From Sphingorhabdus contaminans (lineage in GTDB: Bacteria; Pseudomonadota; Alphaproteobacteria; Sphingomonadales; Sphingomonadaceae): a DNA stretch of 64,000 nt. How positions within the stretch are numbered: position 1 is the first letter of the stretch; each line of letters starts with the position of its first letter. Made by a program: the position numbers and the translations under genes. Where the stretch lies: positions 1,240,001-1,304,000 of the forward strand of contig NZ_VKKU01000001.1 of NCBI RefSeq assembly GCF_007280415.1, in the 5' to 3' direction. The notes under the pieces were generated by a model. It was not told the origin of the DNA. It saw only the letters and a program-made list of their open reading frames with translations, and did not search any database. Below, in pieces: positions 37,479-60,890 of the stretch.

Positions 37479-37487
37479 ACCTTGTCG

Positions 37488-42453: not shown

Positions 42454-42864
42454 ATGGGTTCGCTAGCCGACATTCTGGCCGAACATGCAGGGCGCGAAGG
42501 CGCGTTGCTTCCCATTTTGCATGATGTGCAGAAAATATACGGCCATGTCAGCGAAGATGCGATGCGGGAGATTGCCCACGCCCTGAATTTGACCCGCGCC
42601 GAGGTCTATGGTGTAGTCAGTTTCTATCACGATTTCCGAACAGAGGCAGAAACTCGACCTGTTCTGAAGCTCTGCCGCGCAGAAGCCTGCAAAGCAAGGG
42701 GTGTGGAGGCATTGGTTTCGGTTGCAGAGGACCAAACCCGCGTCAAGGTTGAGCCTGTCTATTGCCTTGGACTTTGCTCCGTAGGTCCTGCCGCACTGGT
42801 TGGTAAAACTGTGCACGCTCGTTTGGATAGCACGCGGCTCACGGCATTGCTGGCCAACCTATGA
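42454..42864 (+). CDS. fdsG: NAD-dependent formate dehydrogenase gamma subunit
   Basis: The 136-residue protein has the NuoE-like thioredoxin fold with [2Fe-2S] ligands in KLCRAEACKARG and YCLGLCSVGPA, and LPILHDVQKIYGHVS near the N-terminus. It passes electrons between the FMN/NADH subunit and the molybdenum subunit of the soluble Fds complex. It overlaps fdsB by four bases and directly follows the adh stop codon. Confidence 0.94.
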   Translation: MGSLADILAEHAGREGALLPILHDVQKIYGHVSEDAMREIAHALNLTRAEVYGVVSFYHDFRTEAETRPVLKLCRAEACKARGVEALVSVAEDQTRVKVEPVYCLGLCSVGPAALVGKTVHARLDSTRLTALLANL

Positions 42865-44839: not shown

Positions 44840-44870
44840 TGAATTCCACGTTTTCGTGTAAGGTGACTAT

Positions 44871-47729
44871 ATGACCTATCAGCCGCAAAAAGATTTCGGC
44901 ACACCGGCTAGCGGGGCGAACGAACTGGTAACGTGCACCATTGATGGTCGGCAGGTCACCGTTCCGGCAGGCACAAGCGTGATGCGCGCGGCAGCGGAAC
45001 AGGGCACTTCAATCCCCAAGCTTTGCGCCACCGATAGTTTGAAGAGCTTCGGTTCTTGCCGCCTGTGTCTTGTGGAAATTGATGGCCGTCGGGGTACGCC
45101 CGCAAGTTGCACCACGCCTGTCGAACCGGGGATGGTTGTTCGCACACAAACGCCGCATCTGCAAAAATTGCGTAAAGGCGTGATGGAACTCTATATTTCG
45201 GACCATCCGCTCGACTGTCTGACATGCGCCGCAAATGGCGATTGTGAGTTGCAGGATCAGGCAGGCGCGGTTGGTCTGCGTGATGTGCGTTATGACGTGC
45301 AAAGCACCCATTTGGGTCAGGAAAAAGACCATTCGAATCCCTATTTCGACTTCGACCCCAGCAAGTGCATTGCTTGTTCGCGTTGTATTCGCGCTTGCGA
45401 CGAGGTTCAGGGAACGCTTGCCCTAACCATGGAGGGTCGGGGATGGGATTCTAAAATATCGGCGGGGCTTGCATCCGATGATTTTCTAGGATCCGAATGT
45501 GTATCTTGCGGCGCCTGTGTGCAAGCATGCCCGACCGCAACTCTTGTCGAGAAAAAAGTTGTCGAGATAGGTACGCCCGAACGCAGCTTCGTTACCACAT
45601 GCGCCTATTGCGGTGTGGGGTGCACCTTCCGTGCCGAAATGCGCGGTGAACAACTGGTCCGCATGGTGCCATACAAGGACGGCAAGGCCAACCGGGGACA
45701 TAGCTGCGTCAAAGGACGTTTTGCGTGGGGCTATGCCCAGCATCAGGATCGCATTCTGAAGCCGATGATCCGCAAATCCATCAACGATCCATGGCGTGAA
45801 GTGGAATGGGACGAGGCATTTGCCTACACCGCGTCAGAACTCAAGCGCATTGCGGACACTTATGGCCGACATGCCCTCGGCGGGATAACCTCCAGCCGGT
45901 GTACCAACGAAGAAACCTTCTTGGTGCAGAAACTTGTCCGTGCAGGCTTCGGGAACAACAATGTCGACACCTGCGCGCGCGTTTGTCATTCACCCACAGG
46001 TTACGGGTTGAAAACAACCTTCGGGACCAGCGCAGGTACTCAGGATTTCGACAGCGTCCAGGAATGCGATGTCATTCTGATAATCGGCGCCAACCCGACA
46101 GACGGCCATCCGGTTTTCGCAAGCCGTATGAAGCGGCGGCTGCGTGGTCAGGATGGACGGCCGCCTGCAAAACTGATCGTGATCGACCCCCGGCGAACCG
46201 ATATCGTGCGCTCGCCCCATATCGAAGCAGAGCATCATCTGCCCCTACGCCCAGGAACCAATGTTGCAGTACTGACGGCAATGGCGCATGTCATTGTTAG
46301 CGAGAAGCTTATGGACGAAGCCTTCATCCGCGAACGCTGCGACTGGGATGAATTTAGCCACTGGGCCGAATTTGTGTCGCAGCCACGCAACAGCCCCGAA
46401 AGCTTGCAGCCGGTTACCCTGGTCGATCCTGAAGAGTTGCGTGCAGCAGCGCGCCTTTATGCCACCGGCGGTAATGCGGCGATTTATTACGGATTGGGTG
46501 TTACCGAACATTCGCAAGGCAGTTCGACGGTTATGGCGATTGCAAACCTCGCAATGGCGACCGGGAATATCGGACGCCGCGGTGTCGGGGTTAATCCCCT
46601 GCGCGGCCAGAACAATGTGCAAGGTGCCTGTGATATGGGCAGTTTTCCGCACGAATTATCCGGTTATCGGCATATCAGTGACGGCCCGACCCGGCAATTG
46701 TTCGAAAATGATTGGGGTGTTTCGCTTGACCCGGAACCCGGACTACGCATTCCTAATATGCTCGATGCCGCGGTAGATGGCGTATTCAAGGCGCTTTACG
46801 TACAAGGCGAAGACATTTTGCAGTCCGACCCCAATACCAAACATGTATCCGCAGGTCTGGCCGCAATGGAGTGCGTCATCGTGCATGACCTATTCCTCAA
46901 CGAAACGGCTAACTACGCCCACATCTTTTTGCCCGGATCAACATTTTTGGAAAAGAACGGCACATTCACCAACGCAGAGCGGCGGATACAGCCCGTGCGC
47001 AAGGTCATGTCGCCGATCAACGGTCTTGAAGATTGGCAGGTAACGCAGCGCCTTGCGCAAGCTATGGGGCTGGACTGGAACTACCAACATCCATCCGAAA
47101 TCATGGACGAAATTGCCCGGCTTACGCCAACATTTGCTGGTGTTTCCTTTGCGCGCCTCGATGAAGAAGGTTCGCTGCAATGGCCGGTCAACGATGCCGC
47201 ACCAGATGGATCGCCCATCATGCATGTTGATGGATTTGTCAGGGGCAAAGGCAAATTTGTCGTGACCGATTATGTCCCGACCGATGAAAAGACCGGTCCG
47301 CGTTTTCCGCTTTTGCTTACAACCGGTCGCATCTTGTCACATTACAATGTCGGCGCGCAGACGCGGCGCACTGAAAATGTCGCATGGCACCCTGAAGATC
47401 TTCTCGAAATACATCCGGTCGATGCCGAAGATCGTGGCATCAAATCGGGCGATTGGGTCAAACTTGCGAGCCGCGCGGGCGAAACAACATTGCGCGCCAC
47501 GGTCACGGACCGGGTTGCACCGGGAGTCGTTTACACCACCTTCCACCATGCAGTCACGCAGGCGAATGTGGTCACGACAGACTATAGCGACTGGGCCACG
47601 AACTGCCCCGAATATAAGGTGACGGCAGTCCAGATCAGCCCCTCCAACGGTCCCACAGACTGGCAAGAAGAGTATGAAGCTCTTTCCGAACGGGCCCGAC
47701 GGATTGCAACCAAGGTTCCGGCGGAATGA
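44871..47729 (+). CDS. fdsA: NAD-dependent formate dehydrogenase alpha (Mo) subunit
   Basis: The 952-residue catalytic subunit has an N-terminal NuoG-like [2Fe-2S] domain (FGSCRLCLVE), a His/Cys cluster (DHPLDCLTCAANGDC), two [4Fe-4S] sites (CIACSRCIRAC and CVSCGACVQAC), a further Cys cluster near residue 244 and the molybdopterin domain. The active-site Mo ligand is Cys372 in CARVCHSPTG, followed by His373. It oxidises formate to CO2. A 31-nt gap separates it from mobA. It uses Cys, not selenocysteine, as is usual for the oxygen-tolerant soluble Fds enzymes. Confidence 0.96.
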   Translation: MTYQPQKDFGTPASGANELVTCTIDGRQVTVPAGTSVMRAAAEQGTSIPKLCATDSLKSFGSCRLCLVEIDGRRGTPASCTTPVEPGMVVRTQTPHLQKLRKGVMELYISDHPLDCLTCAANGDCELQDQAGAVGLRDVRYDVQSTHLGQEKDHSNPYFDFDPSKCIACSRCIRACDEVQGTLALTMEGRGWDSKISAGLASDDFLGSECVSCGACVQACPTATLVEKKVVEIGTPERSFVTTCAYCGVGCTFRAEMRGEQLVRMVPYKDGKANRGHSCVKGRFAWGYAQHQDRILKPMIRKSINDPWREVEWDEAFAYTASELKRIADTYGRHALGGITSSRCTNEETFLVQKLVRAGFGNNNVDTCARVCHSPTGYGLKTTFGTSAGTQDFDSVQECDVILIIGANPTDGHPVFASRMKRRLRGQDGRPPAKLIVIDPRRTDIVRSPHIEAEHHLPLRPGTNVAVLTAMAHVIVSEKLMDEAFIRERCDWDEFSHWAEFVSQPRNSPESLQPVTLVDPEELRAAARLYATGGNAAIYYGLGVTEHSQGSSTVMAIANLAMATGNIGRRGVGVNPLRGQNNVQGACDMGSFPHELSGYRHISDGPTRQLFENDWGVSLDPEPGLRIPNMLDAAVDGVFKALYVQGEDILQSDPNTKHVSAGLAAMECVIVHDLFLNETANYAHIFLPGSTFLEKNGTFTNAERRIQPVRKVMSPINGLEDWQVTQRLAQAMGLDWNYQHPSEIMDEIARLTPTFAGVSFARLDEEGSLQWPVNDAAPDGSPIMHVDGFVRGKGKFVVTDYVPTDEKTGPRFPLLLTTGRILSHYNVGAQTRRTENVAWHPEDLLEIHPVDAEDRGIKSGDWVKLASRAGETTLRATVTDRVAPGVVYTTFHHAVTQANVVTTDYSDWATNCPEYKVTAVQISPSNGPTDWQEEYEALSERARRIATKVPAE

Positions 47730-47938
47730 CCAGCCTTGAACGCCTTGTGTACATGCTCAACCAGATTGCGGCCAATCTGGCGACGGAAGACGACGCTGTG
47801 ACCGCGACTGCCGAGCATGTCCGGCAATTCTGGGATCCGCGGATGAAGCAGATTATTAGTGAGAGCGACCGGCAAGGGCTTTCTCCCGTAGCATCAGCGG
47901 CTGTGCTGCGCCTGGCACAATCACATGCCTCGACCTGA
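47726..47938 (+). CDS. fdsD: formate dehydrogenase delta subunit
   Basis: The 70-residue protein (ERLVYMLNQIAANLATEDDA, then HVRQFWDPRMKQII) is the small FdsD subunit or assembly factor. It overlaps fdsA by four bases and fdhD by 14 bases. Confidence 0.93.
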   Translation: MTSLERLVYMLNQIAANLATEDDAVTATAEHVRQFWDPRMKQIISESDRQGLSPVASAAVLRLAQSHAST

Positions 47939-48728
47939 GGACGGTGCAAGGACTCTGCACTTTGCCGTCATCAAACCCGATGGCAGCGCCTCCACTCAGC
48001 TTGAACGGGACACAATAATCGAGGCAGCGGTTGCGATCGAATATAACGGTATCGGCTATGCCGTCATGATGGCGACACCCATTGATCTCAAGGATTATGC
48101 TGTAGGTTTCAGCCTTTCCGAAGGTTTGATCGATAACCCTGACCAGATTTTGGCCGTTGATATTCATGAAGCCGAATTGGGCTGGATTGTCCGGATAGAG
48201 TTGCCCAATGCCAATGCCGAAAAAGTTATAGAGCGCGCTCGACAACGAGTTTCCGAAAGCAGTTGCGGACTCTGTGGCATGGATAATCTGCACGAGGTCA
48301 TGCGCGCTCTTCCGCCGATCCGGAGCGCCATCGAGGTTTCAGATACCGCCATTTTCAAAGCCCTGTCGTCCCTGCGTGAGCACCAGACACTGAATAGATT
48401 AACGGGATCGGCGCACGCGGCGGCGTTTTGCGCGCCGGACGGGTCAATTCAGATGACACGCGAAGATGTTGGCAGGCACAATGCGCTCGACAAGCTGATC
48501 GGTGCACTCGCTGTGGCAGGGATAGCGCCGGCATCGGGATTCATTCTGTTGACCGCACGTTGCAGCCTTGAACTGGTGCAAAAGGCGATAGTTGCCCAAT
48601 GTCCGATGCTGGTGACAATTTCGGCGGCGACTGACCTAGCCATTCGTGTCGCGAAAGAGAACGGTTTAAGGTTGGTCAGCCTTGCGCGTCCAGACGCGGC
48701 TCTGGTCGCAATGCCCCAAACCGGCTGA
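47925..48728 (+). CDS. fdhD: formate dehydrogenase sulfurtransferase (FdsC/FdhD)
   Basis: The 267-residue protein has the FdhD features CGLCGMDN (CxxC sulfur-carrier pair), SAHAAAFC and DVGRHNALDKLIGA. FdhD/FdsC proteins transfer sulfur to the Mo cofactor before insertion into FdsA. Here it lies after fdsD rather than before it. Its last 53 bases overlap, antisense, the 3' end of the convergent LysR gene, so both C-termini share the same DNA. Confidence 0.93.
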   Translation: MPRPEDGARTLHFAVIKPDGSASTQLERDTIIEAAVAIEYNGIGYAVMMATPIDLKDYAVGFSLSEGLIDNPDQILAVDIHEAELGWIVRIELPNANAEKVIERARQRVSESSCGLCGMDNLHEVMRALPPIRSAIEVSDTAIFKALSSLREHQTLNRLTGSAHAAAFCAPDGSIQMTREDVGRHNALDKLIGALAVAGIAPASGFILLTARCSLELVQKAIVAQCPMLVTISAATDLAIRVAKENGLRLVSLARPDAALVAMPQTG

Positions 48729-49626
48729 TAAGCCAGCTCCGGATCATCGATATGGCGGGATCAGCCAAATCATCGGCGTGCAGTTTCAGATAATAGCCAT
48801 AACCGTCTTCGATGATCGCTTCATACGGCATCACAAGCCGTCCGTCGGCAATTTCCTGTGCAAACATGTCTACGTCACCCAAGAACACGCCATTGGCGGT
48901 CATCGCATATTGGGCCGCGGCGATAGTGGTATCGAAGGCTAGGCCGCCCTGTGTCGACACGGCAAGCCCACATTGCCGCAAATAGGCCAGCCAAAGAAGG
49001 TCGCGTGGTTCGCCATCCAGTTTAAGATGCAACAATTCCTGACTGCCGAGAAATTGCTCCAGCGATTTTCCTTCACTTGCTTTAGCTGTTTCTGCTGAGC
49101 AAAGCGGAGCCACGCGGACCATCCAAAGCAAGTCGGTCACACGGTCATCGACATTGGGCCGGTCATAGGCGATGGCCATATCGAAATCGGTGGGTGGAAG
49201 TCCGGTGACATGTGCGCTCGATACATCAAGGCGGATATCCGGATGCTCAGCCCGAAAATCGCGCAGCATCGGAAGAAACAATTGCTGCAACAGGGACGGC
49301 GGCACATGCAATCGCAACGAACGTCCGGTCATTTCATCATCACGGATTGAATTCATCGTTTGCTCAAGTCGGTCCAGACATTTGCTCACTACAGGCAAAA
49401 GCTCTTCACCTGCGGCAGTTAGCGTCAGCCGCGACGCATCACGAATAAATAACTGTTTTCCAAGTAATTCTTCAAGGCCACCGACATGTCGGCTCATCGC
49501 ACTTTGCGATACGGAAAGGGCGGACGCGCCACCGGTAAAACTCAAATTCTGTCCCACGGCCTCGAACGCGCGCAAAGCGTTGAGTGGTAACCAGCGGCGA
49601 TTGATTGTGCTACGATTGGAAATGAT
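48676..49626 (-). CDS. LysR-family regulator with rare (ATC/ATT) start
   Basis: The GcvA-like HTH reads NRRWLPLNALRAFEAVGQNLSFTGGASALSVSQSAMSRHV and an effector domain follows. Homologues start a few residues before RRWLPLNALRAFE, but here no ATG, GTG or TTG precedes that part after the upstream in-frame TGA; only ATC (49626) or ATT (49623) codons are available, with AAAGG at a suitable distance. A TTG at 49575 would cut off the first part of the DNA-binding domain. It is divergent from the Rieske 2 gene across an inverted repeat and probably regulates the right-arm operon. Confidence 0.85.
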   Translation of the reverse strand: MISNRSTINRRWLPLNALRAFEAVGQNLSFTGGASALSVSQSAMSRHVGGLEELLGKQLFIRDASRLTLTAAGEELLPVVSKCLDRLEQTMNSIRDDEMTGRSLRLHVPPSLLQQLFLPMLRDFRAEHPDIRLDVSSAHVTGLPPTDFDMAIAYDRPNVDDRVTDLLWMVRVAPLCSAETAKASEGKSLEQFLGSQELLHLKLDGEPRDLLWLAYLRQCGLAVSTQGGLAFDTTIAAAQYAMTANGVFLGDVDMFAQEIADGRLVMPYEAIIEDGYGYYLKLHADDLADPAISMIRSWLISRFGALRPEPRLDAQG

Positions 49627-49667: not shown

Positions 49668-49689
49668 GCCCTACATTTTGACATAGGGC
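49668..49689. promoter_or_regulatory. inverted repeat with embedded -35 element before Rieske 2
   Basis: GCCCTA-N10-TAGGGC in the divergent region between the LysR gene and the Rieske 2 gene; a consensus TTGACA (49678-49683) lies within the spacer, reading toward the Rieske gene. The nearest -10-like sequence (TTTTAT at 49705) is spaced longer than normal, so the promoter may need an activator. LysR binding is inference. Confidence 0.5.
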
Positions 49690-49766
49690 TATGCGAAAAT
49701 GCGATTTTATTACACCGCTCAACTGGACCATTCCAGCATTGGAGAGAATTGAGCAAGGGTCAAATC

Positions 49767-50978
49767 ATGGATTTGAAGCGGATAGAGTCGCTGTTCGGGC
49801 AGCGTCGCGAAGGGCATACTTTGCCGCAGGGTTTATACACGGAACAGAATAGTTTCGATTTCGACATGATCGCAATCTATGGCCAGAGCTGGTTGATGGT
49901 AGGCTTGGAATGCGAACTGCCTAAAACTGGTAGCTATATTTCCATGATGGTCGGGCGATGGCCGGTGCTCATTACGCGTGACCGAAATGGAGAAATCCGT
50001 GCATTTCATAACAGTTGCCGTCATCGCGGATCGATGATCTGTTCACCGGGGAGCGGCACTTCACCCAAACTCGTATGCCCCTACCACCGCTGGACTTATG
50101 ATCTGGATGGATCGCTTTTTGCCGCAGGGCGCATGCCGGATGATTTTGACAAAAGTGCGCATGGCCTGAAGCCTGTTGCGATCGAATGTATATCGGGGAC
50201 GATCTTTATCTGCCTTTCCGATACGCCGCCCCCGATCGATGATTTCCGGGAGAAGCTGGAACTCTATGCCGCGCCGCATCAGTTGAAAAACGCAAAACTC
50301 GCATTCGAGAGCGTATTGGTGGAAAATGCCAACTGGAAACTGGTGATGGAAAATGGCCGCGAATGCTATCATTGCAGCACCGGCCATCCCGAGCTCTCCA
50401 AGACCTTCCCGGTCGGCATGTCGAAGCATTTTGACAGCGGTCAGGACCCGCGTGTGATCGCCTTTGAGCAGGCGATGGATGCGCATGGCTTGCCCCAGAC
50501 TCCGGTCGAAGGCCATTGGTGGCAGGTGGCGCGCTTTGCCCTGAACGAAGGCTGCGTTTCGATTTCGGGCGATGGGCAGCACCTGTCCAAAAAACTAATG
50601 TGTGAAGCAAATGGCGGCGACATTGGTTCCATGCGGTGGGCCGTCGATCCCCATTGCTTTGTCCATTGCACAGCTGATCATGTTTTCATGTTCAGCGCCA
50701 TGCCTGTCGGGCCAGAAGAAACGCATGTAACCGGCAAATGGTATGTCCACAAAGACGCTGTGGAAGGGGTCGACTATGATGTCGAAAAGCTTTCCGCCCT
50801 TTGGACCGTGACCAATTTGGAAGACAAGCAACTTGCGGAGAACAACCAAATTGGCGTTCTGAGTCCCGGCTACACACCTGGACCTTATTCGCAGGAAGCC
50901 GAAATGCTCGCGCAACGATTTACCGACTGGTATTGCGACAAGGGGCGCGCATATATTGCGGCGCATGCCAATGGATAA
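49767..50978 (+). CDS. Rieske non-heme iron oxygenase 2 (quaternary-amine demethylase type)
   Basis: From ATG 49767 (AAGGG 7 nt upstream) the protein has 403 residues. The Rieske site is Cys84/His86/Cys104/His107 in SCRHRGS...LVCPYHRW, and the iron centre is Glu/His/His in RECYHCSTGHPEL, preceded by NANWKLVMEN. It is clearly different from the Rieske 1 protein. It heads a run in which every gene overlaps the next: PLP enzyme, OoxA/HcnB-like, DAO and SoxB-D-A-G. It likely opens a catabolic route for an N-methylated compound, releasing formaldehyde. Its reductase is not encoded nearby. Confidence 0.88.
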   Translation: MDLKRIESLFGQRREGHTLPQGLYTEQNSFDFDMIAIYGQSWLMVGLECELPKTGSYISMMVGRWPVLITRDRNGEIRAFHNSCRHRGSMICSPGSGTSPKLVCPYHRWTYDLDGSLFAAGRMPDDFDKSAHGLKPVAIECISGTIFICLSDTPPPIDDFREKLELYAAPHQLKNAKLAFESVLVENANWKLVMENGRECYHCSTGHPELSKTFPVGMSKHFDSGQDPRVIAFEQAMDAHGLPQTPVEGHWWQVARFALNEGCVSISGDGQHLSKKLMCEANGGDIGSMRWAVDPHCFVHCTADHVFMFSAMPVGPEETHVTGKWYVHKDAVEGVDYDVEKLSALWTVTNLEDKQLAENNQIGVLSPGYTPGPYSQEAEMLAQRFTDWYCDKGRAYIAAHANG

Positions 50979-52224
50979 ACCAAAGGGGATGCGCCCCGAA
51001 ACGCTTGCTGTTGCCTATGGCTATGAAGCGCAAATGGGGATGGGATCCGTAAAGCCACCTATCTTCATGACTTCGACTTTTGTGTATCCTTCGGCACAGC
51101 ACGCCAAGGATGTGCACGAAGCCTATTTCGATGGCACTGGGCCGCTCGTCGGGCAGACCAACCACATCTATTCGCGTCTTGGCCACCCCGGCCTGGACTT
51201 TCTGGAAAAGCGACTTGCCGCAATTGACGGTGCGGAAGAAGCCGTCGCCTATTGCAGTGGCATGGCCGCCCATTCCAGCATTGCGCTGGCTCATGTCCGC
51301 ACAGGCGATAGTGTACTGCACGGCCGTCCGATCTATGGCGGCGTCGATATGCTGTACAACAGCATCATGCCTCAATTCGGATCGCATGCGACAGCTTATC
51401 TGGACGGTACGGATGAAAGCGATGTGCGCAACGCGGCACAGGCGGCAATGGCGAAAGGCCCATTGAAACTGATCATTGCAGAAACGCCTGCCAATCCGAC
51501 GGCCGCTATGGTTGATCTGGATCTGATGGTCCGGATGGCAGACGAAGTAGCTGGTGTTCAGGGCCATCGCCCATTGGTTGTCGTTGACAACACCCTGCTC
51601 GGTCCATTTGCCCAACGTCCCATCGAACATGGTGTCGACCTGTGCATGACCTCACTCACCAAATATTGCGGCGGGCATAGTGACTTGCTGGCGGGTGGTG
51701 TAAGCGGCCGGAAAGACCTTATCGATCAGTTGCGGATGCAACGCACAACCTGGGGCAATCATCTGGATCCCTACACATCCTGGCTGGTCCTCCGATCGTT
51801 GGAGTCTGTTGCCGTCCGTACCGAACGTGCCATGTCCAACGCCCGATCGGTCGCCGAATTCTTGCGCGAACATGCCAAGGTCGCCGGAGTTACCTATCTC
51901 GGCTTTCTCGAAGAGGGCAGTAGGCCACGCGAAGTATATGACCGCCAGTGCAAGGCAGCGGGATCGACATTCTCTTTCCATCTTCATGGAGGAGAAGCAG
52001 AGGCGTTTCGTATGCTCGACAATCTAAAATTGTTGAAGGTTGCAGTCAGTCTCGGTGGTTCGGAAACGTTGATCTGCCATTCGGCAAGTACAACCCATTA
52101 TGCTGTACCGCCCGAACAGAGGCGGGCCGGCGGAATAACCGACGGGACAATGCGATTGTCGGTCGGGCTCGAGCATGTGGATGATCTGATCGCCGATTTG
52201 GCGCAGGCACTGGAGGCGGTGTAA
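50965..52224 (+). CDS. Cys/Met-metabolism PLP enzyme (methionine gamma-lyase/cystathionine synthase-like)
   Basis: The roughly 419-residue protein has the family motifs HIYSRLGHPGLDFLEKRLA, YCSGMAAHSS, ETPANPTAAM, VVVDNTLLGPFAQRP and the PLP Lys in MTSLTKYCGGHSDLLAGG. The family includes methionine gamma-lyase, cystathionine gamma-synthase/lyase and O-acetylhomoserine sulfhydrylases. Start choice is uncertain (ATG 50965 or 50971; both overlap the Rieske stop). Located between a Rieske demethylase gene and an N-methyl amino-acid oxidase set, it may cleave a demethylated sulfur- or oxygen-substituted amino acid by gamma-elimination. Confidence 0.88.
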   Translation: MPMDKPKGMRPETLAVAYGYEAQMGMGSVKPPIFMTSTFVYPSAQHAKDVHEAYFDGTGPLVGQTNHIYSRLGHPGLDFLEKRLAAIDGAEEAVAYCSGMAAHSSIALAHVRTGDSVLHGRPIYGGVDMLYNSIMPQFGSHATAYLDGTDESDVRNAAQAAMAKGPLKLIIAETPANPTAAMVDLDLMVRMADEVAGVQGHRPLVVVDNTLLGPFAQRPIEHGVDLCMTSLTKYCGGHSDLLAGGVSGRKDLIDQLRMQRTTWGNHLDPYTSWLVLRSLESVAVRTERAMSNARSVAEFLREHAKVAGVTYLGFLEEGSRPREVYDRQCKAAGSTFSFHLHGGEAEAFRMLDNLKLLKVAVSLGGSETLICHSASTTHYAVPPEQRRAGGITDGTMRLSVGLEHVDDLIADLAQALEAV

Positions 52225-53687
52225 TGGAATTGAATTTTACCGGAACAGATCTCTGCGCCATCAATGGCACGCGCAGCGCGCCAGAGGCGCATTATGAACT
52301 GGTTGTCGTTGGTGCGGGGCCTAGTGGCGTTGCCGCCGCCATCGACGCGGCAAAGGCAGGCACCAAGGTACTTCTGGTCGATGAAAATCCCGTATCCGGC
52401 GCGCTAATGGGTAATGACGTCCCGCTCTACTTCGGCGGACGGATGACGGCAGCGACCCAAAATAGCGAACGTATGCTGGAAGCTATTTTCATGAGCATGC
52501 CCGAACTCGAAACGGCGATGGAGGCCGGGGTCGAACTTCTGCTGGGGACAACCGCATGGGGTGTTTACCGCAACGGCCCGGGGGTCGCCAGCCTGCCAGA
52601 ACAAGTAGTCGGCCTTGCCGATAATGAACGATCCTGGCTCGTGGGTTTCGACCATATCACGCTCGCGACCGGAGCACGGGATCTTTCATTCGCCTTTCCC
52701 GGCTGGAATCAGCCGGGCGTCATGGGTGCTGCGGCTTTGCAGATGTTGCTGACGAGATATGACGCCTTTGCGGGACGCCGTATTTTGATACTGGGATCGC
52801 ATGATCTTGCCATCGAAACCGCGCTACTGGCGCATTCGCGCGGTGTCGAAGTAGCAGGTCTGGTCGAAGTTCGCGGAGAGCCGCAGGCATCTCCTGCCCT
52901 GCAAGCAAAACTTGCCGAGACGGATATCGCACTACATCGCGGCACCGCCATCACGTCGGCCAAGGGCGGTATTGATGGCGTTGAATCCGCGATGCTATCC
53001 AACGGCGAAGAGGTGGTGTGCGATACCATATGTGTGGCGATAGGGCTGGTGCCTTCCATTGAGCTGGTCGACGCCATGCATAGCGGGCGTATGCTGGATC
53101 CCAACCGCGGGGGCTATATTCCCGCCGGCGAAGCAACAGTTTCTGCTGTCGGTGACTGTGCCGGTCTTGCCGCCACCGGATTTGATCACATCGCCTATCG
53201 TATGGAGTGGATGCAGGCCCTAACCGCCAACAGCACCGACGATACCATTATTTGCCAGTGCGAAGAAGTTACGCGCGCAGACCTGATCGGTGTGCAGCCA
53301 CCCAATTATCTGGCCCGCCCTGCCCCCATGTGCGCCCGGTCGCTCGAAACCCTGCTGCAGGATGGCCCTGCCAATCCCGACCAGATCAAGCGCCTTACCC
53401 GCGCCGGTATGGGCGTGTGCCAGGGTCGTCGCTGCAGAGATCAGGTCGCGATGTTGCTCGCGCTCGAAGCTGGAAAGCCCTTTGGTACAATTCCTCTAGC
53501 AACGCACCGCGCACCCGTTCGCCCGTTGCCCATGAAAATCATGGCCGACTGGAACGAGCCCGAAGCCATGTCGGCAGCGTGGGACGTCTGGTTCGGTATA
53601 CCGACCCAATGGGTACCGGTTGAAGATATCGGCACGCAATATGAAGGGGAGCATCGCCAGATGCTTTATACGGGGATGTACGAATGA
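52224..53687 (+). CDS. FAD/NAD-binding oxidoreductase with BFD-like [2Fe-2S] site (OoxA/HcnB type)
   Basis: The 487-residue protein has LVVVGAGPSGVAAAIDAAKAG (FAD Rossmann), a second Rossmann segment (ILILGSHDLAIETALLA), TVSAVGDCAG (Asp contact to FAD) and a C-terminal BFD-like cluster in CQCEEVT...GMGVCQGRRC. This matches the alpha subunit of opine oxidase, hydrogen cyanide synthase HcnB and heteromeric proline/hydroxyproline dehydrogenases. It overlaps its neighbours by one (TAATG) and four bases and pairs with the DAO protein encoded next. It may also be able to donate electrons to the Rieske oxygenase, but that is speculation. Confidence 0.86.
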   Translation: MELNFTGTDLCAINGTRSAPEAHYELVVVGAGPSGVAAAIDAAKAGTKVLLVDENPVSGALMGNDVPLYFGGRMTAATQNSERMLEAIFMSMPELETAMEAGVELLLGTTAWGVYRNGPGVASLPEQVVGLADNERSWLVGFDHITLATGARDLSFAFPGWNQPGVMGAAALQMLLTRYDAFAGRRILILGSHDLAIETALLAHSRGVEVAGLVEVRGEPQASPALQAKLAETDIALHRGTAITSAKGGIDGVESAMLSNGEEVVCDTICVAIGLVPSIELVDAMHSGRMLDPNRGGYIPAGEATVSAVGDCAGLAATGFDHIAYRMEWMQALTANSTDDTIICQCEEVTRADLIGVQPPNYLARPAPMCARSLETLLQDGPANPDQIKRLTRAGMGVCQGRRCRDQVAMLLALEAGKPFGTIPLATHRAPVRPLPMKIMADWNEPEAMSAAWDVWFGIPTQWVPVEDIGTQYEGEHRQMLYTGMYE

Positions 53688-54820
53688 GCGGGTCGGACGT
53701 AGTTATCGTTGGTGGTGGCGTCACGGGTTTAAGCGCAGGCTGGTGGCTGGCTCGCTCGGGCGTCAAGGTCACTGTCCTCGACAAATTCATTGTCGGTTGG
53801 GAAGCGTCGGGCCGCAACGGCGGCGGAGCATCGCATTATCAAAGTCCGCTTTTCGATGAAGAGCAACGTCTTTGGCCGCAGATGGATGAACTGCTCGGCT
53901 ACCCGACCGAGCATCAGAAAGAGCGGATCATCATCGCGATGACGGAACGGCAGTGGGAGCAATATCGCTTCGTTGCCGAACGCCACCACCGCCTAGGCCA
54001 TCCGGTCGAGGTGCTGGACGTCAAGCAGGTACAAGAAGCGGTACCGTTGGCGGGCGATAATTGTTTTGGCGGTGTCCATTATAAATTCGGCGGGCATGCG
54101 AACCCGCAACGCAGCGTTCAGGCCTATGCCTGGGCGTTGCAGGACCTCGGCGGAAAGATTGTCCAGCATAGTCCGGTTACCGGCTTTGAAACTGCGGGCG
54201 GGAAAGTAACCGCGGTCAAAACCGCGACAACAACCTACGGCTGCGATGCGGTGGTAGTAGCTGCTGGCCCGCAAATCCCGCAATTGATGGCGCAACTGGG
54301 CATAGACGTGCCGCTTGCCCCTGCCCGTGCGGAAATGATTATCACCGAACCTGCACCCATGATGCCCATCGGCGGTGTGGACGGGCATAAACTTTATGGC
54401 CGTCAGACGATGCGTGGCAATCTTGCTTATGGTGGCGGTCCGCACGAATGGATCGATGTTGATGCAACAGGCCCCAAGGCCCGGCCATCGACGCCGTTGA
54501 TGCGCAATCTTGCCAGCCGTCTGGCTGAGCTGTTGCCAAAGGCTGCGCATCTGAACATCATTCGTAGCTGGGCCGGAGTCATTGAAAACTCACCCGATGG
54601 GCGTCCGATTATCGACCGCCTTACCAGTCCTGACAATGTCGTTGTTGCATCCATGTCGGGCGTCGGATTTGGCCTGTCGCCGGCATCGGGCCACGCCATA
54701 CGCGACCTCGTAATTGACGGAGCCTGCTCCTTTGCGAACATCGACATGCTGAAGCTGTCGCGTTTCGACAATCTGGAATCCGATTGGCGCCAAAAGCGCG
54801 GGTGGATGCCGATTCCATGA
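53684..54820 (+). CDS. DAO-family FAD oxidoreductase (OoxB/HcnC-like subunit)
   Basis: The 378-residue protein has VVIVGGGVTGLSAGWWLARSGVKVTVLDK (FAD) and the C-terminal GVGFGLSPASGHAIRDLVIDG typical of DAO enzymes such as glycine oxidase, HcnC and OoxB. It likely forms a complex with the BFD-containing protein encoded upstream and oxidises an N-substituted amino acid to an imine. Its stop overlaps the soxB start (ATGA). Confidence 0.87.
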   Translation: MSGSDVVIVGGGVTGLSAGWWLARSGVKVTVLDKFIVGWEASGRNGGGASHYQSPLFDEEQRLWPQMDELLGYPTEHQKERIIIAMTERQWEQYRFVAERHHRLGHPVEVLDVKQVQEAVPLAGDNCFGGVHYKFGGHANPQRSVQAYAWALQDLGGKIVQHSPVTGFETAGGKVTAVKTATTTYGCDAVVVAAGPQIPQLMAQLGIDVPLAPARAEMIITEPAPMMPIGGVDGHKLYGRQTMRGNLAYGGGPHEWIDVDATGPKARPSTPLMRNLASRLAELLPKAAHLNIIRSWAGVIENSPDGRPIIDRLTSPDNVVVASMSGVGFGLSPASGHAIRDLVIDGACSFANIDMLKLSRFDNLESDWRQKRGWMPIP

Positions 54821-56073
54821 ATCGCTATTCGGCTTTCGGATTATTGCGGGGTGCTTTGAACGGGCAGAAGCATTGGCAACCTGCATGGCGCGATCCGGAG
54901 CCGAAGGCGCATTATGACATAATCATCATCGGTGGTGGCGGACATGGTCTGGCGACTGCTTACTATCTCGCCAAGGTCCACGGCTTGCGCAACATTGCTG
55001 TGCTGGAAAAAGGCTGGATCGGCGGCGGAAACACTGGACGTAACACCACGATCGTCCGGTCAAACTACCGTTTGAAACCCTTGCACGACTTTTTCGAGTT
55101 CGGCCTGAAATTGTGGCACCACCTGAGCGACGAGTTGAACTACAACGTCATGTTCAGCCCGCGAGGCGCGATGTTTCTCGGCCATAGCGATGCCGATATG
55201 GTCAAGCTGGCCGAGCGTGGGGACGCCATGCGCTGTGATGGAATTGATGCCGATCTGATGACACGGGACGAGGTCGCAAAGCTTGAACCGTTGCTCGACA
55301 TGTCCCGCAGCGCCCGATTTCCTATTGAAGGCGGATTGATTCAGCGGCGCGGCGGAACGGCGCGGCACGATGCAGTTGCATGGGGATATGCGCGCGGGGC
55401 CGACTCCTTCGGAGTGGACATCATCCAGAAATGCGAGGTCACCGGGTTTGTCCGTAACGGTAATGCGGTCGTCGGCGTAGAAACTACACGCGGACGCATC
55501 GGCGCAGGCCGGGTGGGGATTTGCGTCGCCGGACACAGTGGCCATGTCGCAGGGCTTGCCGGTCTGAAACTGCCCATTGAATCGCAAACATTGCAAGCCA
55601 TGGTGACTGAGGGCGTCAAACCGATGATCAACAGCGTCATCATGTCCCAATCACTGCATTGCTATATCAGCCAGTCGGACAAGGGCGGCATAGTCTTTGG
55701 CGGCGATCCGGACAACTGGCCGAGTTACGCGCAACGTGGCCACCCGATGGTGATGGAAGGTGCCATTGCGCAAGGATTGGCGCTTGTCCCTTCCTTGTCC
55801 CGATTGCGGATGGTGCGCACATGGTCAGGCGTAACTGATATGAGCTTCGACGGATCCCCGATCATCGGGGAAACACCGGTCCGCAACCTCTATCTGAACG
55901 GTGGCTGGTGCTATGGCGGTTTCAAGGCAACGCCTGCATCGGGATGGACCTACGCGCACACACTTGCCACGGGATCCCCCCATCCACTGAACGCGCCATT
56001 CTCGCTTGAACGCTTCATGACAGGGGCGACAATCGATGAAACAGGGACCGGCCCGATGCCGAGCAGCCGCTAA
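54817..56073 (+). CDS. soxB: sarcosine oxidase beta subunit
   Basis: From ATG 54817 the protein has 418 residues. It carries the FAD fold (DIIIIGGGGHGLATAYYLAKVHG), NTGRNTTIVRSNYRL near the active site and TARHDAVAWGYARGAD, whose His184 is at the position used for covalent FMN in heterotetrameric sarcosine oxidases. The family oxidises sarcosine to glycine with transfer of the C1 unit to folate. It overlaps the DAO gene by four bases and soxD by one. Confidence 0.95.
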   Translation: MNRYSAFGLLRGALNGQKHWQPAWRDPEPKAHYDIIIIGGGGHGLATAYYLAKVHGLRNIAVLEKGWIGGGNTGRNTTIVRSNYRLKPLHDFFEFGLKLWHHLSDELNYNVMFSPRGAMFLGHSDADMVKLAERGDAMRCDGIDADLMTRDEVAKLEPLLDMSRSARFPIEGGLIQRRGGTARHDAVAWGYARGADSFGVDIIQKCEVTGFVRNGNAVVGVETTRGRIGAGRVGICVAGHSGHVAGLAGLKLPIESQTLQAMVTEGVKPMINSVIMSQSLHCYISQSDKGGIVFGGDPDNWPSYAQRGHPMVMEGAIAQGLALVPSLSRLRMVRTWSGVTDMSFDGSPIIGETPVRNLYLNGGWCYGGFKATPASGWTYAHTLATGSPHPLNAPFSLERFMTGATIDETGTGPMPSSR

Positions 56074-56336
56074 TGATGTTAATCCACTGCCCCCATTGCG
56101 GCCCGCGTGCACAGAGCGAATTTGTCTATGAGCGGACCGTTGATTCTGTTGCTCCGACGGATGCAACCACCGATCAGGCCATGCAGACGCTATTCACCCG
56201 AAATAACCCGCGGGGCGTTGATGACGAGATTTGGCGCCATAGCTTTGGGTGCCGCGCGTGGATGGTTATCACCCGCCACCGTGTCACAAACGAGATTTCG
56301 CACGTCCGCGCGGTCGGGCCGGAGACGCTGCCATGA
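56073..56336 (+). CDS. soxD: sarcosine oxidase delta subunit
   Basis: The 87-residue protein has the CPHCG zinc motif (IHCPHCGPRAQSEF) and the IWRHSFGCRAWMVITRH part that provides the His and Cys zinc ligands. SoxD binds zinc and stabilises the complex. It overlaps soxB by one base and soxA by four; ATG 56076 is an alternative start. Confidence 0.95.
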   Translation: MMLIHCPHCGPRAQSEFVYERTVDSVAPTDATTDQAMQTLFTRNNPRGVDDEIWRHSFGCRAWMVITRHRVTNEISHVRAVGPETLP

Positions 56337-59101
56337 CCGGCCCTTCCCGTCCAAGCTCCGCAACAGACATCAACTTCACCTTCGACGGAAAGCGCTACAG
56401 CGCACGTAGGGGCGATACGCTCGCTGCCGCATTGCTGGCCAATGGGATTGGTCTGGTCGGACGGAGCTTTAAATATCATCGTCCCCGCGGCATCATGACC
56501 GCCGGTGTTGAAGAACCCAGTGCTCTCGTAACCGTGGGTGAAGGTGGGCGGACCGAACCGAACACACGCGCTACCGATGTTTTTGTCTATGACGGGCTGG
56601 TTGCAAACAGCCAAAATCGGTGGCCCAGCCTGTCACTTGACTTCGGCGCCATATTCGGACTTGCGGCCCCATTATTCTCGGCAGGCTTCTACTACAAAAC
56701 CTTTTTTGGCTCGGCGAAGCGATGGATGTTTTATGAACATTTCATCCGCAAAGCGGCAGGTCTTGGCAATGCGCCGACGGAATCCGACCCGGATCGTTTC
56801 AGCCAGCGCGCCGCCTTCTGCGACGTCCTGGTCGTGGGTGCAGGTCCCTCCGGTCTTGCAGCAGCAGTGGATGCCGCTGAAGCTGGACAGCGCGTCATAC
56901 TGGTTGAGCAGGACGAAATCCTCGGGGCTTCGCTTATCCGTGATCCGCAAGAACTGTATAGCGTATGGGTGCAAAATTGTGCAGAACGCATTCGCGCAGC
57001 AGGCGGCCGCATCTTAACGCGCACTACCGCGTCCGGATATTGGGAACATGATCTGGTAACATTGACCCAGAGACTAGCCGAGCCCGGGCAAGTACCACAC
57101 AATGGTGTCGCGCAGCGGCTTTGGCATGTGCGCGCCGGTCAGGTCCTTTTGGCGACGGGCTCTATCGAGCGGCCTGTTGCCTTTCCTAACAATGACCGGC
57201 CCGGTGTGATGCTGTCTCAGGCGGTGCGGACTTATGTCCGGCGATACGGCGTCTGCCCCGGACAGCGGGTGGTTATCGCAACGAACAATGACGACGCCTA
57301 TCTGACCGCCCATGCCTTACAGGAGGCTGGTGCGCAGATTGTTGCCATTCTCGAAGCCCGCCCTGCTCCGGCCGGTCAGGGACAAAACCTCCCCGTTTTC
57401 AACAACGCCCATCCACTGTCCACCAAGGGCGCACGCCATTGTTTGAAGAATGTTTCAGGCAGCGTGGACGGCGTAACAAAAAGCTGGGATGCCGATTTGC
57501 TTGCGGTTTCCGGAGGATTTACGCCCGTTGTCCATCTGCATTGCCAGGCCGGTGGGACGCTGGAATGGAATGATGCGGCACAAGCCTTTGTCCCCGCGCA
57601 GTCCCGACAGAATGTCAAAACCATCGGCGGCGCAGCGGCCCCTGCCCCTGTCTTTAATGCAACCCCCGTCGCTCCGGCAAAAAAGAGCTTTGTCGATTTC
57701 CAGAACGACGTAACGCTGGCCGATGTCGATCTTGCATGGGCCGAGGGATACCGGTCGGTCGAACATCTCAAACGATATACCACCTTGGGCATGGCCACCG
57801 ATCAGGGCAAGACCAGCAATATGGGCGCGCTGGCACGTCTTGCAGAAAAGCAGGGCGTCGCGATACCCGAAGCCGGCCTGACGACTTTCCGCCCGCCCTA
57901 CACGCCTGTTACCATGGGTCTCTTTGCAGGTGCCGGGGCGAAAGACGCGGGCGCTCATAAGCGTCGGCTGGCCCTTTACGACGTGCATGCCGCCAAAAAC
58001 CCGATCTGGCAGCCGCTTGGCTATTGGTTCCGGCCACGTGCTTATCCGATGGCGGGCGAAACGCTGGCCGACGCTGCGATGCGCGAAGCCCGATCGGTAC
58101 GCACAAGTGCTGGGTTAACCGACGTATCCACTTTGGCGAAATTCGAAGTCAGCGGACCCGACGCTGTGGCGCTGCTGGAAACCATATGTGCCACCACCGT
58201 CGGGAAACTGGCCGTGGGGCGTGGACGCTATACCTTCATGCTGCGCGAAGATGGCTTTGTTTTTGATGACGGTACCGTCTGGCGCATTGACGAAAACCGC
58301 TATCTGTTGACCAGTTCCACTGGTGGAGCAGACCGGATGGCGACACATTTGTCCTATGTGCGCAATTATCTCCATCCGTCCTGGCATGTTTCGGTCGTCA
58401 ATGTACAGGAACACTATGCAGGCATCGCGATCGCAGGTCCAAAAGCCAAATCGGCGGTGGCGAAGCTAATTGGCGAAGAACCTCCCCGTCACATGTCAAC
58501 CATATCCGCAAAGATTGCAGGCGTTTCGGTTCTGGTGCTCGCCGCGAGCTATAGCGGGGAACGTGCCTTTGAAATCTACGTTGATGCGCGAAACGCGGAA
58601 CCGGTCTGGACGCATTGCGAAACAGCAGTGATCGCGGAAGGAGGATGCCTCTACGGTCTGGAGGCGATGGAGTTCTTGCGCATTGAAAAAGGCCATCTGG
58701 TTGTAGGAGGAGAAATCGACGGACGCACGACACCGCAGGATCTCGCGCTCGACAAGATGCTGAACAAGGCGGGCGGATTTATCGGCGCATCCGGTCTCGG
58801 CCGTTCGGCTCTATCCGAGCCCGGTCGCCGACAGCTTGTAGGGCTTGAAGCGATTGAAGGTTCCATTCCCGAAGGTTCCATGCTGGTCACCGCAGATGGA
58901 AAATCTCCCGAAGGCCATGTGACGGCATCGGCATTTCGCATAATGGAAGGCGGGTCTATCGCTTTGGCACATTTGGCAGACGGATTTGATCGCCATGGAG
59001 AGGAGTTGATAGCCACTTCGCCAACCCGGGGACAAAGGGCACGTGTTCGCGTGATTGCGCCACATTTCTATGACAGCGCGGGGGAACGCTACCGTGACTG
59101 A
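56333..59101 (+). CDS. soxA: sarcosine oxidase alpha subunit
   Basis: The 922-residue protein has an N-terminal ferredoxin-like domain without Fe-S cysteines, a FAD/NAD-binding domain (VLVVGAGPSGLAAAVDAAEAGQ, residues 169-174 GAGPSG) and a C-terminal GcvT-like folate domain (ARSVRTSAGLTDVSTLAKFEVSG...EFLRIEKGHLVVGGEIDGRTTP). It holds the NAD+ and folate sites; the C1 unit from sarcosine is passed to THF here. It overlaps soxD by four bases. Length matches the family. Confidence 0.95.
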   Translation: MTGPSRPSSATDINFTFDGKRYSARRGDTLAAALLANGIGLVGRSFKYHRPRGIMTAGVEEPSALVTVGEGGRTEPNTRATDVFVYDGLVANSQNRWPSLSLDFGAIFGLAAPLFSAGFYYKTFFGSAKRWMFYEHFIRKAAGLGNAPTESDPDRFSQRAAFCDVLVVGAGPSGLAAAVDAAEAGQRVILVEQDEILGASLIRDPQELYSVWVQNCAERIRAAGGRILTRTTASGYWEHDLVTLTQRLAEPGQVPHNGVAQRLWHVRAGQVLLATGSIERPVAFPNNDRPGVMLSQAVRTYVRRYGVCPGQRVVIATNNDDAYLTAHALQEAGAQIVAILEARPAPAGQGQNLPVFNNAHPLSTKGARHCLKNVSGSVDGVTKSWDADLLAVSGGFTPVVHLHCQAGGTLEWNDAAQAFVPAQSRQNVKTIGGAAAPAPVFNATPVAPAKKSFVDFQNDVTLADVDLAWAEGYRSVEHLKRYTTLGMATDQGKTSNMGALARLAEKQGVAIPEAGLTTFRPPYTPVTMGLFAGAGAKDAGAHKRRLALYDVHAAKNPIWQPLGYWFRPRAYPMAGETLADAAMREARSVRTSAGLTDVSTLAKFEVSGPDAVALLETICATTVGKLAVGRGRYTFMLREDGFVFDDGTVWRIDENRYLLTSSTGGADRMATHLSYVRNYLHPSWHVSVVNVQEHYAGIAIAGPKAKSAVAKLIGEEPPRHMSTISAKIAGVSVLVLAASYSGERAFEIYVDARNAEPVWTHCETAVIAEGGCLYGLEAMEFLRIEKGHLVVGGEIDGRTTPQDLALDKMLNKAGGFIGASGLGRSALSEPGRRQLVGLEAIEGSIPEGSMLVTADGKSPEGHVTASAFRIMEGGSIALAHLADGFDRHGEELIATSPTRGQRARVRVIAPHFYDSAGERYRD

Positions 59102-59582
59102 CGTAACCGTTTCGATCTTGCCGTCTGCGCCGCTGTGGGCGCTGGAGATATGGAGCAATCCCGACGCCGTTGCGGCGCGCTTTAAAGCAGCGACGGGCTT
59201 TGCCCTCCCCAAAATGGGATCATCGGATGGCAGTGAAGCCTTACGCCTGATCCGGTACGAACCAACTGTCTGGCTTGTGGAGGGCGATGCGTCAGCATTG
59301 CCGTCAATCCTAGCCAATGACGGTACTCAGACGGCAATTGGCGGCGGCATCGTGCGGATGTTACTCTCGGGCAAAGGCTGGCGGCGCTTGTTGATGGAAG
59401 GCGGCGTGTTCGATGCCGAAAGCCCGGCCTTTACCACCGGTTCAAGCGCGGCAACCATTATCGATCATGTCAACATCCGGCTGCATGTGCACAGCGACGA
59501 CGCTTGCCTCGCCTATGTGCCGCTCAGCTACGCGCGAGGGATCCTCCATTTCTGGGAAGAGGCGGCAAAGGCTCTGGATTAA
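59094..59582 (+). CDS. soxG: sarcosine oxidase gamma subunit
   Basis: The 162-residue protein starts at GTG 59094 with GGGGGAA seven bases upstream and overlaps soxA by eight bases. The C-terminal part (SAATIIDHVNIRLHVHSDDACLAYVPLSYARGILHFWEEAAKAL) matches the SoxG tail. It completes the B-D-A-G set in the usual order. Its stop is only three bases from the convergent hydrolase stop. Confidence 0.93.
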   Translation: MTDVTVSILPSAPLWALEIWSNPDAVAARFKAATGFALPKMGSSDGSEALRLIRYEPTVWLVEGDASALPSILANDGTQTAIGGGIVRMLLSGKGWRRLLMEGGVFDAESPAFTTGSSAATIIDHVNIRLHVHSDDACLAYVPLSYARGILHFWEEAAKALD

Positions 59583-59585: not shown

Positions 59586-60890
59586 CTATTTCGCTGGCGG
59601 TGCATGGCGCAATTCCATGCCACGCGCATGGCGCCGCTGGAATCCCTTCCACAATGTCGCCTCAGGTGAACCGGGACTATATGCCCCCCACGGAGTTCCT
59701 GCCAGCGCATTCCATTCGCCTGTGTCGGAATCGGAATCCTCAACAGTGAGATAGCTTTGTTTGTCGATATCCCCGCGAAGATGGACCGCCAAAAACGCGG
59801 TGATGAAATGCAGGTTGATGGCGTTAATGCGGTCCTGCCGCCATATCGGATCCTCGAACCAGTCCATATCCCATACCGAACCGCGCATTTCTTCGGGTAC
59901 GGGATTAAGTGCGATGGAATGTCCAGCTTGCTTGTAGGTCAGCAGATAACGTTCTGCATTGATCGCCGCGCCGAAAACCGCAAGCGCACCGCTTTTATAA
60001 TCCACAACCGGGTCCTGATCGCCCTGAATAAGCAATAGCGGGGCGGTAATTTCCTTCAGGCCTTCTGCGCCCCACGCACTTTTGGGCATTCCTCCTGCCG
60101 GTGCCAGTGCAACGATTGCTTTGACGCCGGGTACCTTCAGGCTTTCGGCACCTTTCGTCCCCCGCGCGACTTTCTTCAGCCATCCGCCTGCAACCAGAGA
60201 CATGTTCGGACCGTCCGGATCCAGGCCCGCACCGCCAGAAGTCAGAACGCCATAACCCCCCTGTGAATAGCCAATGAGCGCTACTTTGGCGGGATCGATC
60301 TGATCCCCCAGATCCGTGCGGAGCCGCGCGGTTACAAATGCAATGTCGCGGGGCCGGTAAAAATTGGGCGCCGCCCGTGTGGTTGCCGAAGATGTATAGG
60401 GATTGGGGTCCTGATGATGGATTGCAGCAACGACATAACCCTTGGACGCCAGATTTTCTGACAACCATGTCATCACTGCCGGATTGTTGCTGTACCCGTG
60501 GCTGATTATAACCAGCGGGTGGCCGTGCCCTTGTGCCACGGCATTGGCAATGGCCATACCTTTTTGTGAAAAGGCGACCGGTTCGCGGGGTGGTTCACCC
60601 CATAATGAATCGCGATACACGACCGGTGTTGCGTCCGCTTTGGGTTCCTGCGCTGGGTACCAGAGCGATACGCGTAACGGACGATCCCGCATCACGACGG
60701 GTGCTTCGACGCCGACCGCATTTTCGACGTCAGGCTGTTCCTTGTGAATGAAGGTCAGCGTCCGGTAGCCGACATGTGAAGGGCCCATAAAGGCGAGCTC
60801 AGGTGCATCCACACCGGGTTTACTTGGGACTTGGGCTTGAACCGGTAGCGCGCATAAGACCAACGTCCAGCACAGCAGAGCACGGATCAT
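59586..60890 (-). CDS. exported alpha/beta hydrolase
   Basis: The 434-residue protein has a signal peptide (IRALLCWTLVLCALPVQAQ). LVIISHGYSNN (oxyanion), IGYSQGGYG (nucleophile Ser), LIQGDQDPVV (acid) and QAGHSIAL (His) complete a hydrolase triad. The layout resembles platelet-activating-factor-acetylhydrolase/dienelactone-hydrolase-like exported enzymes that cleave small esters. It starts with an ATGA overlap on the LysR gene, so it is regulated with it. Substrate unknown. Confidence 0.85.
   Translation of the reverse strand: MIRALLCWTLVLCALPVQAQVPSKPGVDAPELAFMGPSHVGYRTLTFIHKEQPDVENAVGVEAPVVMRDRPLRVSLWYPAQEPKADATPVVYRDSLWGEPPREPVAFSQKGMAIANAVAQGHGHPLVIISHGYSNNPAVMTWLSENLASKGYVVAAIHHQDPNPYTSSATTRAAPNFYRPRDIAFVTARLRTDLGDQIDPAKVALIGYSQGGYGVLTSGGAGLDPDGPNMSLVAGGWLKKVARGTKGAESLKVPGVKAIVALAPAGGMPKSAWGAEGLKEITAPLLLIQGDQDPVVDYKSGALAVFGAAINAERYLLTYKQAGHSIALNPVPEEMRGSVWDMDWFEDPIWRQDRINAINLHFITAFLAVHLRGDIDKQSYLTVEDSDSDTGEWNALAGTPWGAYSPGSPEATLWKGFQRRHARGMELRHAPPAK

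Follow-up and report, generated by a model that had tools for sequence, protein, structure and literature searches.

A conserved, apparently undescribed and probably betaine-catabolic gene unit in Sphingorhabdus contaminans that joins a Rieske demethylase to a Cys/Met-metabolism PLP enzyme

A small number of betaines, among them glycine betaine, carnitine and stachydrine, have known catabolic pathways. The glycine betaine region of Pseudomonas carries gbcA/gbcB, dgcAB, soxBDAG, purU and fdhA, and the genes for sarcosine oxidase (Sox), purU, frmA and formate dehydrogenase are the usual companions of glycine betaine catabolism. Here, we report on an operon in a 64,000-nucleotide stretch of the Sphingorhabdus contaminans genome (contig NZ_VKKU01000001.1, positions 1,240,001 to 1,304,000), referred to below as the window, in which a Rieske oxygenase of the quaternary-amine demethylase type is joined to a pyridoxal phosphate (PLP) enzyme of the Cys/Met-metabolism family. 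Similar to the Pseudomonas region, the window has a Rieske demethylase, a heterotetrameric sarcosine oxidase and genes for the disposal of one-carbon (C1) units. Unlike that region, the core of the operon adds the PLP enzyme and a pair of oxidoreductases that we call oxA and oxB, the operon lacks a gbcB-type reductase, the Rieske enzymes of its kind have Gly or Ala in place of an Asn near the iron, and Sox is dispensable. We lean towards reading the operon as a catabolic pathway for an alpha-amino-acid betaine other than glycine betaine, one that carries a side-chain leaving group at C-gamma (or C-beta) and that would be demethylated first and then opened by PLP-dependent elimination.

The operon consists of eight genes on the forward strand, from 49767 to 59582, and each gene overlaps the next, with overlaps of 1 to 32 bases at the seven junctions, just as the initial annotation had proposed for the genes from Rieske to soxG. 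The order is Rieske oxygenase (49767..50978, ATG at 49767 and TAA at 50978; Rieske and Ring_hydroxyl_A domains), PLP enzyme (50965..52224, ATG at 50965 or 50971 and TAA at 52224; PF01053, 325 bits), oxA, an FAD oxidoreductase and the presumed partner of oxB (52224..53687; Pyr_redox_2 with a BFD/SO_alpha_A3 tail), oxB, a DAO-fold amine oxidoreductase (53684..54820; PF01266, 220 bits), and then soxB, soxD, soxA and soxG. SoxB, the sarcosine oxidase beta subunit (54817..56073; TIGR01373, 649 bits, cut-off 529), is the only one of the four Sox subunits to exceed its NCBIfam cut-off, with SoxD (56073..56336, stop codon read) reaching 79 bits against PF04267 (cut-off 27) and 80 bits against TIGR01374, under its cut-off, SoxA (56333..59101) 1007 bits against TIGR01372 (cut-off 1164), and SoxG (about 59070..59582) 38 bits against TIGR01375, also under its cut-off. 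All of the genes named for the span 49668-56336 are indeed present, but neither end of that span holds. Position 49668 is not a start codon in the Rieske reading frame, in which the earliest candidates are a TTG (49749) and an ATG (49767). At the other end, soxD stops at 56336, leaving soxA and soxG outside.

A scan with the PLP protein gave 26 loci at 78-95% identity from Sphingorhabdus, Novosphingobium and other sphingomonad records, one of which starts (L022) and another of which ends (L030) inside the PLP gene (L and G numbers are our own labels for loci and genomes). The Rieske gene lies directly upstream of the PLP gene in all 25 loci that have upstream sequence. Downstream, oxA follows in 25 of 25 (as a match in two pieces in L010). 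It is succeeded by oxB in all 23 loci that extend so far, and then by soxB in all 22 that reach it, the remaining loci ending too early. In eight further loci (L119, L081, L140, L137, L143, L144, L145 and L146) the Rieske gene precedes the PLP gene in seven and oxA-oxB follows it in all eight. Given this recurrence of the Rieske gene upstream of the PLP gene, the arrangement is not a product of chance, and the proposed tie between the PLP enzyme and Rieske, oxA and oxB is supported. Wherever a locus among those examined has both Rieske and oxA, the PLP gene lies between them, despite surroundings that differ from genus to genus. Sox behaves differently. SoxBDAG directly follows oxB in four of the eight further loci, whereas in L119 the Sox genes are ∼5 kb away on the opposite strand, and in L137, L081 and L140 no Sox match was found in the fetched stretch, to which the search for Sox in those genomes was confined. 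In both L081 and L140 another DAO-type oxidase occupies the Sox position. Because Sox is separated, replaced or absent from the fetched stretch in some relatives, we rejected it as a member of the core, and the initial annotation's view of Sox as an integral step is not upheld. The conserved unit is Rieske-(reductase)-PLP-oxA-oxB, the bracketed gene being a Fer2/FAD/NAD reductase found between Rieske and PLP in L081 (genome G040), and Sox probably provides one route among several for completing demethylation.

Several alphaproteobacterial families have the unit, their PLP enzymes being as little as 56% identical to that of the window, but it is rare. The PLP clade was detected in 3 of 385 genomes sampled across the class (G000, the genome of the window, G356 and G040; at least 58% identity), 4 of 398 across the phylum (G000, G656, G356 and G738) and 8 of 246 across the order (E 1e-140), where G805, G853 and G903 enter the counts only, their neighbourhoods lying outside the synteny reading. 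Three of 168 plasmid records were looked at, and loci L045, L049 and L050 are outside the analysis.

The nearest solved relatives of the window Rieske are 3vca and 4qup (365 bits), which we take to be the stachydrine demethylase Stc2, a name also used in PMC7948474. The passages of that paper used here give E205, C206, H208 and C209 of CntA as the reference residues for the group V quaternary-amine Rieske motif. The window protein conforms to group V, having the Rieske CxH...CxxH pattern (CRH...CPYH) and, in ECYHC...H, the bridging Glu of ExxH and the iron-site His. According to the same passages, an aromatic residue at CntA Tyr203 distinguishes group Va, whose enzymes act on carnitine or choline, from group Vb, which acts on glycine betaine or stachydrine (GbcA, Stc2) and has no such residue, and the substrate analogue proline binds the iron of Stc2 via its carboxylate (PMC7948474). 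Although Stc2 shares the ECYHC...H iron-site motif with the window Rieske, our alignment, in which the CntA-Y203 position lies two residues before the bridging Glu, places Asn in Stc2 and Gly in the window enzyme. We know of no PLP lyase in stachydrine catabolism. All 33 PLP-linked Rieske proteins (window plus 32 loci) lack the Asn, which we took as the mark of group Vb, and have Gly (23) or Ala (10) instead, with the ECYHC...H motif conserved. In contrast, Asn is retained by the Rieske of a separate betaine cluster in the window's own genome and by three of three Rieskes that do not adjoin a PLP gene (G040, G356 and G738), the one in G356 lying 26 kb from the PLP gene on the same contig. The consistent replacement of Asn suggests that the Rieske substrate differs from glycine betaine.

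That separate cluster (L044, G000:C1 1303000-1322000) lies ∼5-17 kb past the operon, just outside the window, and is a canonical-looking choline/glycine betaine cluster with betA (above cut-off), a BCCT transporter, sox genes, a Rieske gene, a dimethylglycine-dehydrogenase-like protein and an FAD oxidoreductase recognised by Pfam (orf459); neither betB nor gbcB was seen in it. A GbcB-type reductase, considered as the electron donor of the window Rieske, has a single match in the genome, at 31% identity (C2:1549450), and was not adopted as such. The cluster bears directly on the view, which we consider unlikely, that the operon is simply a second glycine-betaine/sarcosine operon whose PLP enzyme acts only on serine, threonine or a sulfur amino acid, whether downstream or neighbouring, for which the glyA and ltaA genes of the Pseudomonas betaine region offer a parallel. 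The window does carry the Sox, purU, frmA and formate dehydrogenase genes expected on that view, and the GbcA equivalog NF058607 is the best named model for the Rieske protein, albeit at 436 bits against a cut-off of 670. However, L044 already appears to cater for glycine betaine, the Asn is replaced throughout, and Sox is missing from the fetched stretches of L137, L081 and L140. The first two of these points make glycine betaine unlikely as the main substrate, and it is probably not the substrate of the operon.

The PLP enzyme narrowly passes the NF005455/PRK07049 model (510 bits, cut-off 504), to which 5ijg and 7swh also belong under the name 'cystathionine gamma-synthase family', and 5ijg is its closest solved protein (420 bits). 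Among the best 25 of 44 families this was the only model passed, with none for metB, metC or metZ over its curated cut-off. In a tree of 55 proteins, however, 30 window-type rows (the window and 29 chosen loci, with L008, L010, L011, L022 and L030 of the scan left out) separate from 23 canonical PRK07049 rows on a branch with 95/95 support, and at the thresholds used 16 positions distinguish the two clades. The NF005455 cut-off admits both of these well separated clades under one name. Gene surroundings differ likewise: no match to Rieske, oxA, oxB or Sox was found in the fetched stretches of the 23 canonical loci examined, which span 5.8 to 19 kb, cover little beyond one flank in L083 and L124, and leave eight of 23 canonical-type class genomes outside the survey. 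The case that the initial annotation had set against itself, an ordinary methionine-biosynthesis enzyme in the same context in genomes lacking Rieske and Sox, did not turn up among these loci. Elsewhere the genome has metC (TIGR01324, above cut-off), a metZ-like gene (O-succinylhomoserine sulfhydrylase models, under their cut-offs) and a canonical PRK07049 copy (NF005455, 679 bits). Together with the separate clade, these make it unlikely that the window enzyme serves in methionine biosynthesis. One canonical PRK07049 gene (L086, G178) lies near a full-length dimethylglycine-dehydrogenase-like gene that is 46% identical to window 21801-24245.

Methionine gamma-lyases belong to the same Pfam family, and the PLP lysine, the C-terminal arginine, the active-site Tyr and the YxR pair of the window enzyme, whose roles we assume, align with those of its relatives, but its score against the methionine gamma-lyase model is 335 bits (cut-off 550). 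Kinship with these lyases would suit a scavenging Met/Cys lyase that is co-transcribed by chance and stands outside the pathway, as would the retention of PLP-oxA-oxB without Rieske in one genome (G867). Such a role is nevertheless very improbable, given the fixed position of the PLP gene between Rieske and oxA in genera with differing surroundings, its separate clade, and a Gly at the position where methionine gamma-lyase presumably has Cys.

The description of oxA and oxB as OoxA/HcnB-like holds only at the level of domains (Pyr_redox_2 with BFD/SO_alpha_A3, and DAO). By sequence, the solved structure that matches oxA best is the heterotetrameric sarcosine oxidase alpha subunit, and for oxB it is 1y56_B. 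Since these domains are those of two-subunit amine dehydrogenases, the pair could cleave an N-carboxyalkyl amine as an opine-type oxidase, the substrate then being an opine-like N-alkylated amino acid with the Rieske enzyme acting on another N-substituent. We regard this as highly doubtful: Sox or another DAO protein follows oxB in most visible loci, as serial N-demethylation predicts, and no opine-specific gene was noticed, although none was searched for.

For a betaine with a side-chain leaving group, the substrate, order of steps and products that we infer would be as follows. The Rieske enzyme would take the first methyl off the quaternary nitrogen. The remaining methyls would be taken by oxA/oxB and SoxBDAG, or in relatives by the other DAO-type oxidase, whose presence at the Sox position in L081 and L140 fits an N-methyl oxidation step. 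The formaldehyde or methylene-tetrahydrofolate released would be cleared by purU, frmA and formate dehydrogenase. PLP chemistry requires a free primary amine, and the lyase is therefore placed after the demethylations, where it would act on the freed amine and eliminate the side-chain substituent to leave ammonia and a 2-oxo acid (2-oxobutyrate in the case of gamma-elimination). For the same reason the sequence originally suggested, with elimination between demethylation and sarcosine-type oxidation, is chemically unlikely. Homoserine is a substrate of cystathionine gamma-lyase. E. coli MetB, a relative of the PLP enzyme, cleaves O-succinylhomoserine to 2-ketobutyrate, according to the passages of PMC7476758 used here. 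Additional support comes from G040, where the cluster with the Fer2/FAD/NAD reductase stands beside an OpuAC betaine-type binding protein that adjoins the LysR gene.

A second gene module is linked to the Rieske-PLP operon. In the window it occupies the reverse strand and comprises genes for a GcvA-like LysR regulator (within 28806..40277), a GMC oxidoreductase (29811-31427), an enolase-superfamily acid dehydratase (31424-32611), an aldehyde dehydrogenase (ALDH, 32608-34089), an MFS transporter (34037-35344), a TPR-sulfotransferase (35358-37364) and a TonB receptor (37488-40277), with a beta-hydroxyacid dehydrogenase of the 3-hydroxyisobutyrate/threonate type, under curated cut-offs, on the forward strand (27832..28809). 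Six Novosphingobium-type loci (L023, L024 and L026-L029) all have the dehydratase and MFS homologues divergent from and upstream of Rieske; five have the ALDH (not L024), and five the TonB receptor and TPR-sulfotransferase (not L023). Only L023 and L024 extend as far as the GMC gene, and L023 alone as far as the beta-hydroxyacid dehydrogenase, the remaining loci ending earlier. In G356, from another family, a TonB-TPR-MFS-ALDH-dehydratase-GMC-LysR block lies upstream on the same contig, and in G867 the module is present with the dehydratase ∼27 kb from the PLP gene. Across the 246 genomes of the order sample, the dehydratase (E 1e-100) occurs in seven, all among the eight with the PLP enzyme. 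The Fisher p is 8e-13 when genomes are counted and 7e-5 when genera are, without correction for kinship in either case, and a single genus accounts for five of the seven.

The dehydratase matches 4e5t (604 bits) and 4e4u (586 bits), whose structure titles name no substrate; its relatives 3t4w, 3rcy and 4j3z are likewise without a functional title, and a GTHGQ stretch stands at the place of what we take to be the metal-ligand Asp of DgoD-type enzymes. The TPR-sulfotransferase fusion adjoins the TonB receptor, a pairing kept in several relatives. The beta-hydroxyacid dehydrogenase is also present in L162 and L163, where a second aldehyde dehydrogenase lies beside it (L162 10698-12107 in G356; L163 12941-14347 in G867), and this pairing suggests a step from 3-hydroxy acid through semialdehyde to acid.

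Several observations weigh against a betaine pathway ending in PLP-dependent elimination. Firstly, the Rieske protein falls short of the GbcA cut-off, but so does the L044 betaine-cluster Rieske (419 bits), so that this score does not discriminate. Secondly, the locus in G867 (L143) reads LysR | PLP-oxA-oxB-SoxBDAG, with no Rieske gene at the locus and no Rieske match at E 1e-40 in the genome, which is 99% complete. This weakens any claim of strict coupling, and the unit of G867 may use a less methylated starting substrate or another demethylase. Thirdly, the dehydratase, present in 8 of 11 PLP-bearing genomes tested (G356 included), was not found at E 1e-60 in G040, G738 or G907. Finally, the Gly at the methionine gamma-lyase Cys position, where the aligned solved chain of that enzyme has Ala, and Arg/Thr in place of its presumed Lys/Asp pair mean that gamma-lyase activity is not assured.

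Around the operon, a LysR regulator with HTH_1 and LysR_substrate domains is divergently oriented (48676..49575, reverse strand); a homologue holds the matching divergent position in L081, L119, L137 and L140, and none was matched at L023, L024 or L026-L029. Upstream on the forward strand are the C1 disposal genes (40424..48728), namely purU, frmA, formate dehydrogenase beta and alpha, a mobA-like gene and fdhD, the mobA-like gene (44300-44839) lying between those for the beta and alpha subunits. An fdhA gene is found upstream in 14 of the 26 loci of the PLP scan, several of the others being too short to judge. The window also has a second amine cluster on the reverse strand (19484-26663), of a different make-up, in which a Rieske gene is accompanied by an alcohol dehydrogenase of the zinc type and by two dimethylglycine-dehydrogenase-like proteins with GcvT domains; its Rieske has Phe at the CntA-Y203 position and is group Va-like there.

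The methionine- or homoserine-type betaine suggested by the initial annotation is a possible substrate, and N,N,N-trimethylhomoserine, free or as the glyceryl ether, is the leading specific candidate. If the substrate bears glycerol, there would be a role for the beta-hydroxyacid dehydrogenase as well as for the GMC, ALDH and dehydratase genes. One natural compound in which a glyceryl group is combined with homoserine and three N-methyls is the headgroup of diacylglyceryl-N,N,N-trimethylhomoserine (DGTS), a betaine lipid of algae. It is conceivable, if rather improbable, that the island at 27.8-61 kb of the window is a complete pathway for this headgroup. Secreted hydrolases would deacylate the lipid, and the TonB receptor and MFS transporter would take up glyceryl-N,N,N-trimethylhomoserine. 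GMC and ALDH would oxidise the glyceryl end to a 3-O-alkylglycerate, which the enolase-superfamily enzyme would split by beta-elimination into N,N,N-trimethylhomoserine and pyruvate. Removal of the methyls would then fall to Rieske, oxAB and Sox, and the PLP enzyme would convert homoserine to 2-oxobutyrate and ammonia. DGTS occurs in green algae, as stated in the part of PMC8752610 used here. An alpha/beta hydrolase resembling PAF-AH and PETase (59586..60890, reverse strand; PF12740, PF03403), with a putative N-terminal signal peptide, adjoins the operon in the window and in many Sphingorhabdus-type loci. Because the esterase-like genes beside the operon vary by genus, with a CocE-type gene in L137, they lend DGTS weak support. 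BtaA (PF11899), considered as a sign of endogenous DGTS, is absent from the window's own genome and gave no support to that source; it was found in 1 of 11 PLP-bearing genomes (G907).

We recognised no treatment of this gene combination, or of bacterial breakdown of the DGTS headgroup, in the titles and abstract openings of the papers listed in the literature searched, most subscription papers lying outside it. The locus is a real and conserved betaine-catabolic unit that is apparently undescribed. A conserved demethylase-plus-lyase unit would add to the known pathways a class of betaine in which PLP chemistry opens the carbon skeleton, and would point to functions for both the PLP clade and the enolase-superfamily family of 4e5t and 4e4u. 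If the DGTS headgroup is indeed the substrate, the unit would provide a genetic marker for the turnover by bacteria of an algal lipid that lacks phosphorus.

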